64,000 nucleotides of DNA from Heliomicrobium modesticaldum Ice1 (GTDB taxonomy: Bacteria; Bacillota; Desulfitobacteriia; Heliobacteriales; Heliobacteriaceae): positions 2,719,501-2,783,500 of the forward strand of contig NC_010337.2 of NCBI RefSeq assembly GCF_000019165.1, read 5' to 3'. The translations under genes and the position numbers were made by a program. This document shows, piece by piece, positions 37,957 to 45,257 of this stretch. The stretch's first letter is position 1, and each line of letters begins with the position of its first letter. The notes beneath the pieces are model-generated. The model was not told the DNA's origin, did no database searches, and saw nothing but the letters and a program-made list of their open reading frames with translations.

Positions 37957-40221
37957 CTGAAACTGCTCATTCCAATCCTGCGCTTTTTATTGTCACGCCT
38001 CTTTCCCTTGCGGCTGATGCACTTTGAACGCCTCCGGAACGACGGGCCGCTCATCGTCATGCCCAACCACGTCTCTTCTCTCAGCGTGCTCATCTTAAGC
38101 TTGTTCCTGCCGGAAGACATCGTCTTCGTCGTCAATACCGAAATCGCCGCCAAGCTCTCCTTCGCGCTCCGCTTTCGCAGGCATATCCCCATGGACCCCC
38201 TAAACCCCTATTCCATCCGAGACATCATCTCCGCCATCAAGGGCGGCATGCCTGTCGTCCTCTTCCCCGAGGGGCGGATCACGACGACCACCGGCATCAT
38301 GAAGATTTATGACGGGATCGCCTTCATCGCCCAGAAGACAGGCGTGCCTGTTTACCCTGTCGGCATCGACGGCCTCCAGCACTCGCGCTTTTCCCGTCTG
38401 GAAGGCACGATGCCGCAACGCTGGTTCCCGCCGATCACCATATATGTCGATGAGCCCTTCTCCCTCTGCACGGCGATGGGGCAAAATCAAAAAGACCAAA
38501 AATCCTCCGGCAGCGACCGGATCCTGAAAGCCCTCGAACGGGCGCTCTTTCGCAGCCGCTACCACCCGGGGATCAATCTCTTCAACGAGCTGCTCGAGGC
38601 GGCGCAACTGTTCGGATTGAACAAGGAGACCATCGAGGATATCAACCAGAAGTTGACCTACCGCAAACTGCTCCTGGCGATCTACGCCCTGAGCGAGCCT
38701 CTCCAGCGGCGGCTCGCCGGCGAGGAGCGTGTCGGCGTCATGCTGCCCAACGCCGCCGCTCATGTGGTCACCCTCTTCGCCCTCTTTCGCATCAACATCA
38801 CCCCGGCCATCTTAAACTTCACAAGCGGCCCCCAGGGAATCCTCGACAGTTGCGAGACGGCAGAGCTGAAGACAGTGATCACCTCCCGCCAGTTCATTGA
38901 AAAAGCGGGCCTGGGGACCCACGTAGAGAAAGCTGCCGAAAAGGCGCGCATCCTCTACCTGGAGGATGTGCGTGAAGAGGTATCATCCTTCGGAAAACTG
39001 AAGGCGCTCTTCAACCTGGCCCTCAAGCGCCGGACCAGGCCTGGTCGGGAACGGCTCATCCTCTTCACCTCGGGAAGTGAAGGCAAACCGAAGGGCGTCA
39101 TCCTCCGCCACGACAACATCCAGGCCAATGTGATGCAGGCCTGCACCGTCATCGCCCTGACAGCAAAGGACAAACTGCTCAACGCCTTGCCCATGTTCCA
39201 CAGCTTCGGCCTCCAGGGCGTCTTCATCCCCCTCCTCTGCGGCTTTGAAGTCTTTCTCTATCCTACACCGCTTCACTACAAGATCATCCCCGAGATCGCC
39301 TATGACCGCAACGCCACGATCATCTTCGGAACGGGCACCTTCCTGCAAGGCTATGGCAAGCACGCCCACCCCTACGACTTTTACTCAATCCGCTACGTCA
39401 TCACGGGCGGCGAAAGACTGAAGGAGGAGACGCGCCGGCTCTGGCTGGACAAGTTCGGCCTGCGCTCCCTGGAAGGCTACGGTTGCACAGAGGCTTCGCC
39501 CTTCCTGGCCATCAACTCCCCCCTCTGCTACAAGGCGGGCACTGTAGGGCGCATCTTTCCCGATGTAACACACCGCATCGAACCGGTGGACGGGATTGAA
39601 CGGGGCGGCAACCTTTTCGTCCGAGGACCTAACATCATGGAAGGCTACTTGATCCACGGCAAAGGCTTCGTCCCCGCCGGCGAGTGGTATGACTGCGGCG
39701 ATCTGGTCGAAGAAGACGCCCGCGGATTCATCACCATCCTCTCGCGGCTCAAGCGCTTCGCCAAGCTCGGCGGCGAGATGATTTCCCTGAACCTGATCGA
39801 GGAACTGGCCACCCGCTGTTTTGCGTCGACGGAGATGGCCGCCGTCAACGTATCGGGCGGCAAAAAGGGCGAGCAGGTGATCCTCTTTACCACAGTGAAA
39901 AAGGCTTCCCGGCAGGCGCTCCGTGATTTTATCGCCGCCTCAGGCCATTCTCCCTTGCTCGTTCCGGCCCGCCTCTGCCACCTCGACAGCCTGCCCCTGC
40001 TGGGCAACGGCAAAATAGACTACGTGAGTCTGAAGACGGTCTACGCGAGGCGATCGCAAAGGACAGGGCCAACGAGGCCGACAACGATGAAGACGATGAG
40101 GAAGAGGGCACCTGATCATCATGGCGCCGATATAAAAGGGATAACAACGAGAAAAGACGGTGTCCTTTTTGCGACGCCGCCTTTTTTTCATAGAGATCTT
40201 AGTGAATTGGCTTTGAAATGA
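37957..40221 (+). CDS. Acyltransferase / acyl-ACP (acyl-CoA) synthetase fusion, Aas-like, with 3' frameshift
   Basis: About 720 aa of real protein. Residues 1-200 form a PlsC-like acyltransferase (MPNHVSSLSV, FPEGRIT); the HX4D aspartate is Ser. Then an AMP-binding synthetase with LILFTSGSEGKPKGVIL, YGCTEASPF and GNGKIDY. No ATG, GTG or TTG fits the start: a CTG at 37957 lies 6 nt behind GAGGAGGG, whereas TTG 37990 has no site. After VSLKT (about 40037) the frame turns into basic nonsense that reads through a terminator to 40221. One extra G at 40037-40039 would give GLREAIAKDRANEADNDEDD and a stop at 40113-40115. A recycled lysophospholipid acylation role is inferred. Confidence 0.82.
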   Translation: MKLLIPILRFLLSRLFPLRLMHFERLRNDGPLIVMPNHVSSLSVLILSLFLPEDIVFVVNTEIAAKLSFALRFRRHIPMDPLNPYSIRDIISAIKGGMPVVLFPEGRITTTTGIMKIYDGIAFIAQKTGVPVYPVGIDGLQHSRFSRLEGTMPQRWFPPITIYVDEPFSLCTAMGQNQKDQKSSGSDRILKALERALFRSRYHPGINLFNELLEAAQLFGLNKETIEDINQKLTYRKLLLAIYALSEPLQRRLAGEERVGVMLPNAAAHVVTLFALFRINITPAILNFTSGPQGILDSCETAELKTVITSRQFIEKAGLGTHVEKAAEKARILYLEDVREEVSSFGKLKALFNLALKRRTRPGRERLILFTSGSEGKPKGVILRHDNIQANVMQACTVIALTAKDKLLNALPMFHSFGLQGVFIPLLCGFEVFLYPTPLHYKIIPEIAYDRNATIIFGTGTFLQGYGKHAHPYDFYSIRYVITGGERLKEETRRLWLDKFGLRSLEGYGCTEASPFLAINSPLCYKAGTVGRIFPDVTHRIEPVDGIERGGNLFVRGPNIMEGYLIHGKGFVPAGEWYDCGDLVEEDARGFITILSRLKRFAKLGGEMISLNLIEELATRCFASTEMAAVNVSGGKKGEQVILFTTVKKASRQALRDFIAASGHSPLLVPARLCHLDSLPLLGNGKIDYVSLKTVYARRSQRTGPTRPTTMKTMRKRAPDHHGADIKGITTRKDGVLFATPPFFHRDLSELALK
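40158..40188 (+). terminator. Terminator inside the frameshifted 3' tail of the Aas-like gene
   Basis: CGGTGTC / GACGCCG (one G-T pair), 8-nt loop, then CC and seven Ts. Its position supports a true coding end at 40115. Confidence 0.65.
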
Positions 40222-40232
40222 TGCTGACTTTG

Positions 40233-40445
40233 TTACTTTTTCGGTTTTTTGCTGATCGCGTTCTGCGGGCAAAGACGGATGCAGATACCGCATCCCGTGC
40301 ATTTGCTCTCGTCGATCTCCCAGCGCTCCACCTTGCGGCGAAAGAACCCTTCCCCGCCGACGGGGATGATCGCCTGCACCGGGCAACGCCGCGCAGGCGG
40401 GCAGCCTTTCATCCGGTCACAGATGCTGTAATCAATCGTCACCAT
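40233..40445 (-). CDS. 4Fe-4S ferredoxin-type protein with unusual first Cys motif
   Basis: 70 aa from ATG 40445, with AGGGGG 10 nt upstream. The C-terminal cluster motif CTGCGICIRLCP is canonical. The N-terminal motif is CDRMKGCPPARRCP, C-x5-C-x5-C-P instead of CxxCxxCxxxCP, so the first cluster is either differently bound or modified. A CsoR-like palindrome overlaps the ribosome site, suggesting metal, sulfur or aldehyde control. It is a single gene. Confidence 0.82.
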   Translation of the reverse strand: MVTIDYSICDRMKGCPPARRCPVQAIIPVGGEGFFRRKVERWEIDESKCTGCGICIRLCPQNAISKKPKK

Positions 40446-40451
40446 TGACAC

Positions 40452-40468
40452 ATACCCCCTATGGGTAT
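40452..40468 (-). promoter_or_regulatory. CsoR/RcnR-family-like operator
   Basis: Minus strand ATACCCATAGGGGGTAT, with inverted ATACCC/GGGTAT arms. It closely resembles operators of Firmicute CsoR-type repressors and covers the ribosome site of the ferredoxin gene. The ligand (Cu, persulfide or other) cannot be told, and no csoR gene is nearby. Confidence 0.55.
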
Positions 40469-40626
40469 TATACGGGCCCTCGCGGAGAGTGTCAACGGTT
40501 CATGCCTACAGCAACCGGAAATCCGGGCCGCCTTTCTCGCCCACAGGCCGGTGCCACCCGGGATAGGCCTGCGCCGATAGGGCGAAAATGACGGGGACGG
40601 CATTTCCTCCGGAAAGGAATGGATCG

Positions 40627-42884: not shown

Positions 42885-42902
42885 ATGAAAGAAGGTCTTC
42901 CC

Positions 42903-45257
42903 ATGACAACATCATGCAACGGCAATTGCGCCTGCTCCTGCAGCGCCGCAGCAGAGAATGCCGGAACAGCTAAATCTGTTGACGCCATTGCCGTCGTATC
43001 CGGCACAGGCGCGCCGGCAGCGGTGACAGGCGCTTTTGCAGAAGCCGCGACAACAGCGGCTGCAGTCACGGCAGATCCCGTCCTCCGCTATTATATCGAC
43101 GGCCTCGACTGCGCCGACTGCGCCGCCAAAGTGGAAAAGATCCTCTCTCAACAAGCTGGTGTGCGTTGGGTCCGCATCGATTTCGGCGCCGGCGCGCTGA
43201 CCCTTTCGCCCATCGAACCGGCTTTCTCGCTACCGACCATTACCTCGGTCGTCTCCAGCCTCGGTTACCGCCTGCGGCTGCCTGAAGGCGCCGGCGGATC
43301 GAGGGCAGCGCAAGAGACAGGAACGATGGCGGGCAAGGAACCCCGATGGCGCCGCCTGAACCTCCGCGCGGCCAGACCGGTCCTCTCCGGGCTTGGCTTG
43401 GCGCTGGGTCTCCTCCTCGACCAGACGGCGGCGACAGCCCTCTCCCCGCTTGCCTACGCCTTCGCCATCGTCGCCGGAGGCTGGCCCATCGCCCGCGCCG
43501 CTTGGACAGCCCTGAAGGCGTTGACCTTGGACATGAACGTGCTGATGCTCCTGGCTGTAGCCGGCGCCATCGCTATCCAGGAATGGTCTGAGGCGGCGGC
43601 TGTCGTCTTCCTTTTCAGCCTAGGGGCGGTCCTGCAGGCGTCGACGCTGGACAAAACGCGTCGCTCCATCCGCTCGCTCCTTTCTCTGACGCCAGCCGTC
43701 GCCACCGTCTCCCGCAATGGCGTCGAATCCACCGAACCAGTGGAACAGATCATCCCCGGCGATATGATCATCGTCCGCCCCGGCGATCGGATCCCCCTCG
43801 ACGGGCAAGTCCTGCGTGGCGTCTCATCGGTCAACCAGGCGCCGGTGACCGGCGAATCGACGCCGGTGGAAAAAGAGCCCGGCGACGGCGTCTTCGCCGG
43901 CACGGTCAACGAAAACGGGCTCCTGGAGATCCTGGTCACCCGTCCGGCTTCAGACAGCGCCGTCGCCCGCATCATCCGCCTCGTCGAAGAGGCCCAGTCG
44001 CGCCGCGCCCCCGCACAGCAGTTCGTCGACCGTTTTGCCGCCGTCTACACGCCTACCGTGATCGTCTTAGCCGCTCTCGTGGCCGTCGTGCCGCCCCTTT
44101 TCGGCGCCCCTTGGGAGGAGTGGTTCTACCGCGCCCTGGAACTGCTCGTCGTATCCTGCCCCTGCGCACTGGTCATCTCAACGCCCGTGGCTATCGTCGC
44201 CGCCATCGGCAACGGCGCCAAGCAAGGCGTACTGATCAAAGGTGGCGCCCACTTGGAGGAACTGGGCCGGATCAACACCATCGCCTTTGACAAGACGGGC
44301 ACCCTGACTGTAGGCCGGCCGGCAGTGGCCCATTTCCTCAACGTGGCGCCACCGGATCAACATGATGACCAGGCGCTGCTCTCCATCGCCTGGCGCCTGG
44401 AGCGACGGTCATCGCACCCGCTGGCGGCAGCCATCGTCCGCTTTGCCGAGGAACGCCTTCCGGCAACCGCCCATGGCGACCTATCGGAACTGAAAGGCTA
44501 TGCCACCCTGCCGGGCGCCGGTGTGTCCGCCGTCATCGGCGGTGTCCCTTATGCCCTCACGTCGCCCGGGCGCAGCCCAGTCGCATCAGCCCTTCCGGAA
44601 AACCTTCTCGCGCAGATCGACACATGGCAGCGCGATGGCTATACGGTCAGCCTGCTTTCCGATGATAGGCGACCGCTGGCCCTCTTCGCCCTCTCCGACG
44701 CTTGCCGGCCGGAAAGCGGCCGCGTCTTGGCCCGCCTGAAAGCGGCTGGCGTCAGCCATATCGCCATGCTCACCGGCGATAACAGCCACACGGCCCGCCG
44801 CATCGCCGCCGAACTGTCTATCGACGAGGTGCACGCCGAACTGCTGCCGGCGGAAAAGGCGGAGACCGTACAGGCATTGATGCGCCCCGAGCGCCGCGTC
44901 GCCATGGTCGGCGACGGGATCAACGACGCGCCGGCGCTGACGGCGGCCCACCTCGGCGTAGCCATGGGCGGTTACGGATCGGACATGGCCATGGAGACAG
45001 CCGACGTGATCCTCGCCAGCGGCAGGCTGGAACAGCTTCCCTTCGCCATCCGTCTCGGTCGCTCAGCCTTGTCCATCATCCGGCAGAACATCATCTTCGC
45101 CCTCGTCGTCAAGGCTGTTGCCTTGCTCTTGATCCTCCCCAACTGGCTCAACCTCTGGCTGGCCGTCTTAAGCGACACCGGCGCCGCGCTGGTGGTCATC
45201 CTGAACGCCCTTCGCCTGCTCAATATCAATACCCTTTCTCCAGATCGACCACGTTAA
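42903..45257 (+). CDS. Heavy-metal P1B-type ATPase (Zn/Cd/Co class)
   Basis: 784 aa from ATG 42903 with AGAAGG upstream. A Cys-rich tip (CNGNCACSCS) and a heavy-metal-associated domain (GLDCADCAAKVEKIL, about 60-125) precede eight membrane helices. The metal site is SCPCALVIS, the phosphorylation motif DKTGTLTVG, the HP motif SSHPLAAAI and the hinge GDGINDAPAL. CPC plus the GLDCADC domain points to Zn2+/Cd2+/Co2+ export, like CadA or ZntA. The 3' end overlaps the convergent hydroxyacid dehydrogenase by 32 nt. Confidence 0.92.
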   Translation: MTTSCNGNCACSCSAAAENAGTAKSVDAIAVVSGTGAPAAVTGAFAEAATTAAAVTADPVLRYYIDGLDCADCAAKVEKILSQQAGVRWVRIDFGAGALTLSPIEPAFSLPTITSVVSSLGYRLRLPEGAGGSRAAQETGTMAGKEPRWRRLNLRAARPVLSGLGLALGLLLDQTAATALSPLAYAFAIVAGGWPIARAAWTALKALTLDMNVLMLLAVAGAIAIQEWSEAAAVVFLFSLGAVLQASTLDKTRRSIRSLLSLTPAVATVSRNGVESTEPVEQIIPGDMIIVRPGDRIPLDGQVLRGVSSVNQAPVTGESTPVEKEPGDGVFAGTVNENGLLEILVTRPASDSAVARIIRLVEEAQSRRAPAQQFVDRFAAVYTPTVIVLAALVAVVPPLFGAPWEEWFYRALELLVVSCPCALVISTPVAIVAAIGNGAKQGVLIKGGAHLEELGRINTIAFDKTGTLTVGRPAVAHFLNVAPPDQHDDQALLSIAWRLERRSSHPLAAAIVRFAEERLPATAHGDLSELKGYATLPGAGVSAVIGGVPYALTSPGRSPVASALPENLLAQIDTWQRDGYTVSLLSDDRRPLALFALSDACRPESGRVLARLKAAGVSHIAMLTGDNSHTARRIAAELSIDEVHAELLPAEKAETVQALMRPERRVAMVGDGINDAPALTAAHLGVAMGGYGSDMAMETADVILASGRLEQLPFAIRLGRSALSIIRQNIIFALVVKAVALLLILPNWLNLWLAVLSDTGAALVVILNALRLLNINTLSPDRPR

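Follow-up and report, generated by a model that had tools for sequence, protein, structure and literature searches.

A CsoR-type palindrome before an unusual ferredoxin gene of Heliomicrobium modesticaldum appears to belong to a conserved operator set tied to a thioredoxin-linked repressor

In the genome of Heliomicrobium modesticaldum Ice1, the gene of a small, oddly built ferredoxin carries a palindrome of the CsoR type over its ribosome site, and the question raised by this locus is which regulator would bind there and to what signal it would respond. The window, i.e., the whole stretch of DNA analyzed, comprises 64,000 nucleotides (contig NC_010337.2, positions 2,719,501 to 2,783,500), and the genome searched is one contig of 3,075,407 bp. 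Judging by sequence comparison, the site belongs to a conserved set of operators with a five-base spacer (ATACCC-N5-GGGTAT, hereafter N5) tied to a thioredoxin-linked repressor of the CsoR family, and the occurrence of the same site before ferredoxin and thioredoxin genes in relatives speaks for a response to sulfur or thiol stress over ordinary copper control. The observation is more general than the original prediction on this DNA could see.

Table 1. Features of the ferredoxin locus, in window coordinates
Feature	Position	Strand	Remarks
-35 box TTGACA, ferredoxin promoter	40490-40495	-	12/12 sigma-70 match, 17-bp spacer
-10 box TATAAT	40467-40472	-	final two bases double as the operator's first two
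Predicted operator ATACCC-N5-GGGTAT (TAC-X9-GTA)	40452-40468	-	kept upstream of orthologues
AGGGGG, ribosome-site-like run within the operator	40455-40460	-	9 bases 5' of the ATG; from sequence
Ferredoxin gene, 70 aa from ATG 40443-40445	40233-40445	-	reading frame from GTG 40451 open too
Odd cluster motif C9-D-x4-C15-x5-C21-P, one Cys fewer than normal	40383-40421	-	cysteines invariant, 7 family rows
Normal 4Fe-4S motif C49-x2-C52-x2-C55-x3-C59-P	40269-40301	-	Pfam Fer4, E 2e-10

The palindrome was confirmed and reaches further than originally described: ATACCCATAGGGGGTAT, with ATACCC and GGGTAT arms around an ATAGG spacer, ends 6 bp from the ATG and covers not only the ribosome site but also the edge of the -10 box and the expected transcription start of the ferredoxin gene, a predicted placement that is usual for a repressor. 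It shows the TAC-X9-GTA inverted repeat and the G/C tracts of a type-2 CsoR operator, and it is the sole match in the window when up to three mismatches are allowed, against 0.05 expected. Across the genome, the strict pattern ATACCC-N5-GGGTAT gave two matches versus none for the reversed control, whereas the looser TACCC-N5-GGGTA gave three versus three, a count that taken alone is at chance level. The palindrome stands above chance because of its position and conservation, and a chance origin was rejected on these grounds and on the fixed spacing, despite the equal loose-pattern counts.

The three exact matches to TACCC-N5-GGGTA all fall in promoter-like sequence, before the ferredoxin gene, a gene for a CoA-binding/thioredoxin-reductase (TrxR) fusion and a Tat-type 4Fe-4S gene followed by a cytochrome b561 gene. 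The Tat-type protein (L011:7253-8922, minus strand) resembles HmcB/HybA below the cut-off. In the fusion, a CoA-binding domain is joined to a thioredoxin reductase (TIGR01292, above cut-off) that has both NADPH motifs, GxGxxA and HRRxxxR, and so need not use ferredoxin; a ferredoxin-dependent thioredoxin reductase (FFTR), defined by the missing motifs, is thus unsupported in this genome. No sulfurtransferase-type gene was found at the four known target loci of the window's genome.

Both motifs attributed to the ferredoxin by the original prediction, one normal and one of C-x5-C-x5-C-P spacing, are read in the 70-aa product. The spacing of the first is common to all 34 members examined (7 from the family of the window's genome and 27 further), with Asp at the position of D10 in 33 motifs and Glu in one. 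A 2[4Fe-4S] ferredoxin has two complete C-x2-C-x2-C-x3-CP motifs, and this one does not, its first motif being C-x5-C-x5-CP. If C21 serves cluster II, as in the usual crossed pattern, cluster I would be left with three cysteines (C9, C15 and C59) and may therefore be a 3Fe-4S cluster, or a 4Fe-4S cluster with a non-cysteine ligand. An AlphaFold model from a 4-row alignment (pLDDT 53.7) is too poor to judge cluster I, and none of the best 25 of 48 NCBIfam models reaches its cut-off on the protein. Bacterial 7Fe/8Fe ferredoxins likewise combine one complete 4Fe-4S motif with a second, partial one, but differ from this family, which has the C-x5-C-x5-C first motif and three Cys for cluster I. Relatives with the same C-x5-C-x5-CP motif occur in two Thermoplasmata MAGs and one Clostridiales MAG (L047, L048, L049), with no such palindrome within 220 bases upstream. 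As for the neighborhood, an acyltransferase (PF01553) fused to an AMP-binding enzyme (PF00501) is encoded on the opposite strand and runs towards the ferredoxin gene (37990-40221, plus strand). At 2.4 kb from the ferredoxin lies a gene (42885-45257, plus strand) whose product is a P-type heavy-metal ATPase; it has a Cys-rich N-terminus, contains a single HMA domain and is presumably of Zn/Cd type judging by its C-terminal sequence. The window scan with up to three mismatches found no CsoR-type site near it.

The original prediction reported no csoR gene at the locus, which is true of the window, and named the lack of any CsoR-family gene in the genome as counter-evidence; the genome has two, csoR1 and csoR2, both elsewhere. 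CsoR1 adjoins an ATPase that reads as copper-type (copA), and its own promoter carries ATACCC-N6-GGGTAT (N6). CsoR2, assigned to the CsoR/RcnR family by PF02583 (89.2 bits, cut-off 22.8), adjoins the thioredoxin gene trxA, and an imperfect N5 palindrome follows the -10 box of its own promoter. In nine genomes of the family, the ferredoxin was found in seven, CsoR1 in five, trxA-linked CsoR2 in eight, the TrxR fusion in nine and the Tat protein in six; because the genomes compared are related, counts here and below are not independent. The csoR1 promoters carry N6 at 12/12 in 5/5 and N5 never above 9/12, whereas those of trxA-linked csoR2 carry N5 at 10/12 or better in 8/8 (just 10/12 in G000, G003 and G004). 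Absence of the palindrome from orthologous loci, also named beforehand as counter-evidence, is not what we see: six of the seven family ferredoxins have an N5 site of at least 10/12, the exception (G007) having no site and a best N5 match of 7/12. The Tat Fe-S gene has a site of at least 11/12 in 6/6 genomes and the TrxR fusion in 6/9, with no near N5 site in G006, G007 and G008; in G008, a different CsoR-family gene is divergent from the Tat gene, with the site between them. N6 at csoR1 and N5 at csoR2 and the ferredoxin suggest that the two regulators are told apart by one base pair in the spacer, with the ferredoxin on the side of CsoR2.

CsoR1 was considered first because the operator is of the published copper type, N5 being that of the Streptomyces copper CsoR (PMC3902906). 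The corresponding explanation is that the site answers to Cu(I), with ferredoxin and thioredoxin replacing copper-damaged Fe-S clusters and thiols under CsoR1 or a copper-sensing CsoR2. Against CsoR1 stand its N6 operator in 5/5 genomes and the persistence of N5 at csoR2 and its targets in three genomes (G005, G006, G007) where the search found no csoR1, an absence that is not certain because two of these are drafts; CsoR1 as the ferredoxin regulator is set back accordingly. Moreover, the copper CsoR meta-regulon of gut Firmicutes consists mainly of csoR and copA, and its description names neither ferredoxin nor thioredoxin in the main text (PMC4938975).

To follow the ferredoxin across the phylum, a profile search was employed, which recovered 30 of 299 genomes at E 1e-9. 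One of the 28 further loci (L182) was left out as not of the ferredoxin family by motif, leaving 29/299, about a tenth. Among 34 upstream regions, one ferredoxin per genome, N5 reaches at least 11/12 in 16 and 12/12 in nine, against 0.3% in shuffles; one genome (G065) is represented by a copy without a site (L178), its second copy (L344) having a 12/12 site. No other spacer of 0-4 or 6-10 reaches 11/12 in these regions, 11 of them have a 10/12 match with spacer 3, and three ferredoxins (L171, L172, L178) have N5 matches of at most 6/12. Conserved -10 boxes and G-rich ribosome sites could in principle yield the palindrome as a by-product with no regulator involved, as the overlap with both elements in the window might suggest. 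However, the ferredoxin site of G006 lies upstream of the -35 box, in many family members it is found with unchanged spacing at 50-140 bases from a reference point close to the start, and that of the Tat gene sits inside the -35/-10 spacer, so we find this explanation hardly credible.

The exact pattern ATACCC-N5-GGGTAT has 107 sites versus 5 for the reversed control in 36 genomes, picked for carrying the ferredoxin or for belonging to the window's family. All 27 further ferredoxin genomes contain a CsoR-family gene, compared with 246 of the 299 phylum genomes overall; set against genomes lacking the ferredoxin, the comparison is 29/29 versus 217/270 (Fisher p 0.0025, uncorrected for kinship). 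The matches listed behind exact N5 sites comprise 82 loci, some being the same site twice, and 20 chosen target proteins were annotated with Pfam, one being without a family. Among these matches are TauE, a PF04143 sulfur transporter, a YgaP-like transmembrane protein and a thioredoxin-TrxR fusion, along with DUF302, SBF, FTR1 and membrane Fer4_5 proteins. The same matches hold four further small ferredoxins (L317, L318, L333, L344); one of them has the odd motif itself, the other three Cys-rich variants of it.

Gene linkage was observed in other genomes as well. In the genus g134, the ferredoxin, a CsoR-family gene, TusA and DrsE_2 follow one another on the same strand in 4/4 genomes (identities by Pfam for one genome and by motifs for four). 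Candidate targets of the sulfurtransferase type are TusA and DsrE beside the ferredoxin here and TauE and PF04143 elsewhere. The ferredoxin's own site in g134 is 9-10/12 only, the adjacent CsoR falls on a different branch from CsoR2 in a weak tree, and none of the trxA-linked regulators of the genus has an N5 site reaching 10/12. A TrxR-like gene that lacks HRRxxxR and has GxGxxA only near the C-terminus lies behind an N5 site in at least three of the four genomes (L308-L310). Elsewhere, the odd ferredoxin is naturally fused to a thioredoxin domain and followed by a TrxR gene (L212:5925-6677), a thioredoxin-like gene comes directly after the ferredoxin (L205), or a perfect N5 site precedes TrxR-TrxA near the ferredoxin (L206). 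The ferredoxin of G123 is followed by a gene (L213:6128-8038, plus strand) that presumably encodes a carbon monoxide dehydrogenase.

The sensor residues of the regulators were compared next to their linkage; the G104:C2 fragment, G104:C4 and G265:C19 were left out of 54 CsoR places. Thioredoxin is encoded directly downstream of 27 of 65 CsoR-family domains, and 21 of these trxA-linked regulators have N5 at 10/12 or better in their own promoters. Both cysteines are conserved in 27/27, as in CstR, while the copper-site His is kept in 12 and missing in 15, and the Tyr before the first Cys, which has a role in copper coupling, is present in five and missing in 22. HMA-linked regulators, defined by a GMxCxxC motif in reach of the gene, instead read Tyr-Cys-His-Cys in 14/14, with N5 at 10/12 or better in two and N6 in five. 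That group does not include L242, L245 and L262, three regulators with a CPx-type ATPase motif nearby; with them the His count is 16/17, the L245 regulator having Tyr in its place. The chain 7mq1, which we take to be a CstR, has Asn at the position of the copper-site His. In family f14 (five genomes), ferredoxin sites are 12/12 in 5/5 and the trxA-linked regulator has Cys-Tyr-Cys, His being replaced by Tyr, with an 11/12 N5 site in 5/5; the promoters of the five Tyr-Cys-His-Cys regulators of this family (L258-L261 and L268, in 4/5 genomes) contain no N5 reaching 10/12. Two cysteines without His would fit a dithiol sensor like CstR or YrkD. A gene that we label ThiF-like from its motif lies upstream of 18 of the 27 trxA-linked regulators, which suggests a single old locus for them, and a tree of 58 distinct CsoR domains and five reference chains (83 columns, many weak forks) sets CsoR1 and CsoR2 apart and groups the f14 regulators.

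CsoR2 of the window's genome differs from CstR in retaining the His. Its Cys-His-Cys Cu(I) ligands are found in 7/8 family CsoR2 proteins, with Gln in G005, which leaves room for Cu(I) binding and speaks for the copper explanation, as do N5 sites before HMA-motif ATPases in at least two genomes, G118 and G061, and the sole CsoR-family gene of G118, which encodes the full Tyr-Cys-His-Cys beside trxA. On the other side, besides the missing His and Tyr residues counted above, the residue before the first Cys is Ala, Gly or Ser in 8/8 family CsoR2 proteins, and linkage to a copper efflux gene is lacking, with trxA downstream and no HMA motif in reach in 8/8; several linked or co-regulated genes are moreover sulfur or thiol genes. 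Control by Cu(I) thus appears rather unlikely to us. The original question of a copper, persulfide or aldehyde sensor is narrowed, in that the trxA-linked dithiol regulator is favored over the copA-linked one; for the effector, thiol or reactive sulfur is favored, with copper second.

What the sequences show is how promoter and operator are arranged, that the sites are conserved and shared between genes, that spacing differs by paralogue and that the genes are linked; CsoR2 binding, derepression, the nature of the effector and the partner of the ferredoxin are what we infer from it. We consider it probable that CsoR2, as a CstR-like dithiol repressor, governs a regulon in which a dedicated ferredoxin is tied to the handling of thiols or reactive sulfur. 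Sequence evidence supports the predicted control of the ferredoxin by a regulator of the CsoR/CstR/FrmR type, as originally proposed. CsoR2, encoded beside trxA, would occupy the palindrome as its operator, thereby covering the ribosome site, the transcription start and the edge of the -10 box, and keep the ferredoxin off. Persulfide, polysulfide or some other thiol stressor would most likely be what reacts with the two cysteines of CsoR2, bridging them by a disulfide or polysulfide in the manner of CstR, whereupon CsoR2 would leave the DNA. The ferredoxin would then be made alongside thioredoxin, the CoA-binding/TrxR fusion and the Tat-type Fe-S protein with its cytochrome b, and may supply electrons to thiol or sulfane-sulfur reduction.

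The same regulon might instead respond through CsoR2 to formaldehyde or another electrophile, to nickel or to oxygen-derived disulfide stress. Two invariant cysteines would suit any thiol-reactive signal, thioredoxin and its reductase are in the regulon, and the dithiol regulator of the CsoR family in Thermus, which binds DNA best when reduced, controls the SoxW thioredoxin and sox genes (PMC10318464). However, the 20 annotated targets include neither an aldehyde nor a nickel gene, and TusA, DsrE and TauE point to sulfur, so these signals seem improbable. Returning to CsoR2 as a sensor of reactive sulfur, a broader version is advanced tentatively: thioredoxin-linked dithiol CsoR repressors might control an undescribed reactive-sulfur and thiol regulon throughout the phylum, in which the three-Cys ferredoxin, possibly with a 3Fe-4S or labile cluster, is the hallmark member, feeds electrons of low potential into both thioredoxin and persulfide reduction and may itself sense or tolerate sulfane sulfur.

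Several implications follow. A ferredoxin family named by none of those 25 best NCBIfam models gains a regulatory context and is tied to thioredoxin and sulfur-transfer genes, with relatives reaching archaeal MAGs. Two paralogous CsoR repressors are suggested to coexist in one genome through a 1-bp difference in operator spacing, and copper control should not be the default reading of CsoR-type sites in these bacteria.

Among the matches listed in the open-licence PMC literature, no CsoR-family control of this ferredoxin and no trxA-linked CsoR regulon was found. The nearest known systems compare as follows. The type-2 CsoR operator is TAC-X9-GTA, with the Streptomyces consensus ATATACCCCTNAGGGGTATAT and its 5-bp spacer (PMC3902906); the copper CsoR of Streptomyces lividans shares this operator form, and the genome studied here has a copA-linked paralogue, but that paralogue uses N6, and the N5 target is not copper export. 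The FFTR of Clostridia is defined by the missing GxGxxA and HRRxxxR motifs (PMC10880999, a paper whose main text nowhere uses the word CsoR). Ferredoxin, TrxA and TrxR are likewise linked in the genomes considered here, and g134 has its TrxR-like gene without HRRxxxR behind N5, whereas the reductase of the window's genome has the NADPH motifs and a CoA-binding domain. The dithiol sensors CstR and YrkD react with sulfane sulfur (PMC9918477, PMC9405070) and target rhodaneses, SQR, persulfide dioxygenase, DsrE/TusA homologues and CoA persulfide reductase (PMC10318464, PMC9918477, PMC9405070). With these sensors, the system shares the CsoR family, the two conserved cysteines, sites in the regulator's own promoter, and genes of the TusA, DsrE and TauE types that are linked or carry a site; unlike theirs, its targets center on thioredoxin and ferredoxin, and CsoR2 of this genome retains His. 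TTHA1953 of Thermus thermophilus differs in its operator, TACNNTACNNNNGTANNGTA, and in its sox targets, no sox genes being among the targets annotated here, yet it is likewise a dithiol repressor of the CsoR family, separate from the copper CsoR, with a thioredoxin (SoxW) and sulfur genes as targets (PMC10318464).
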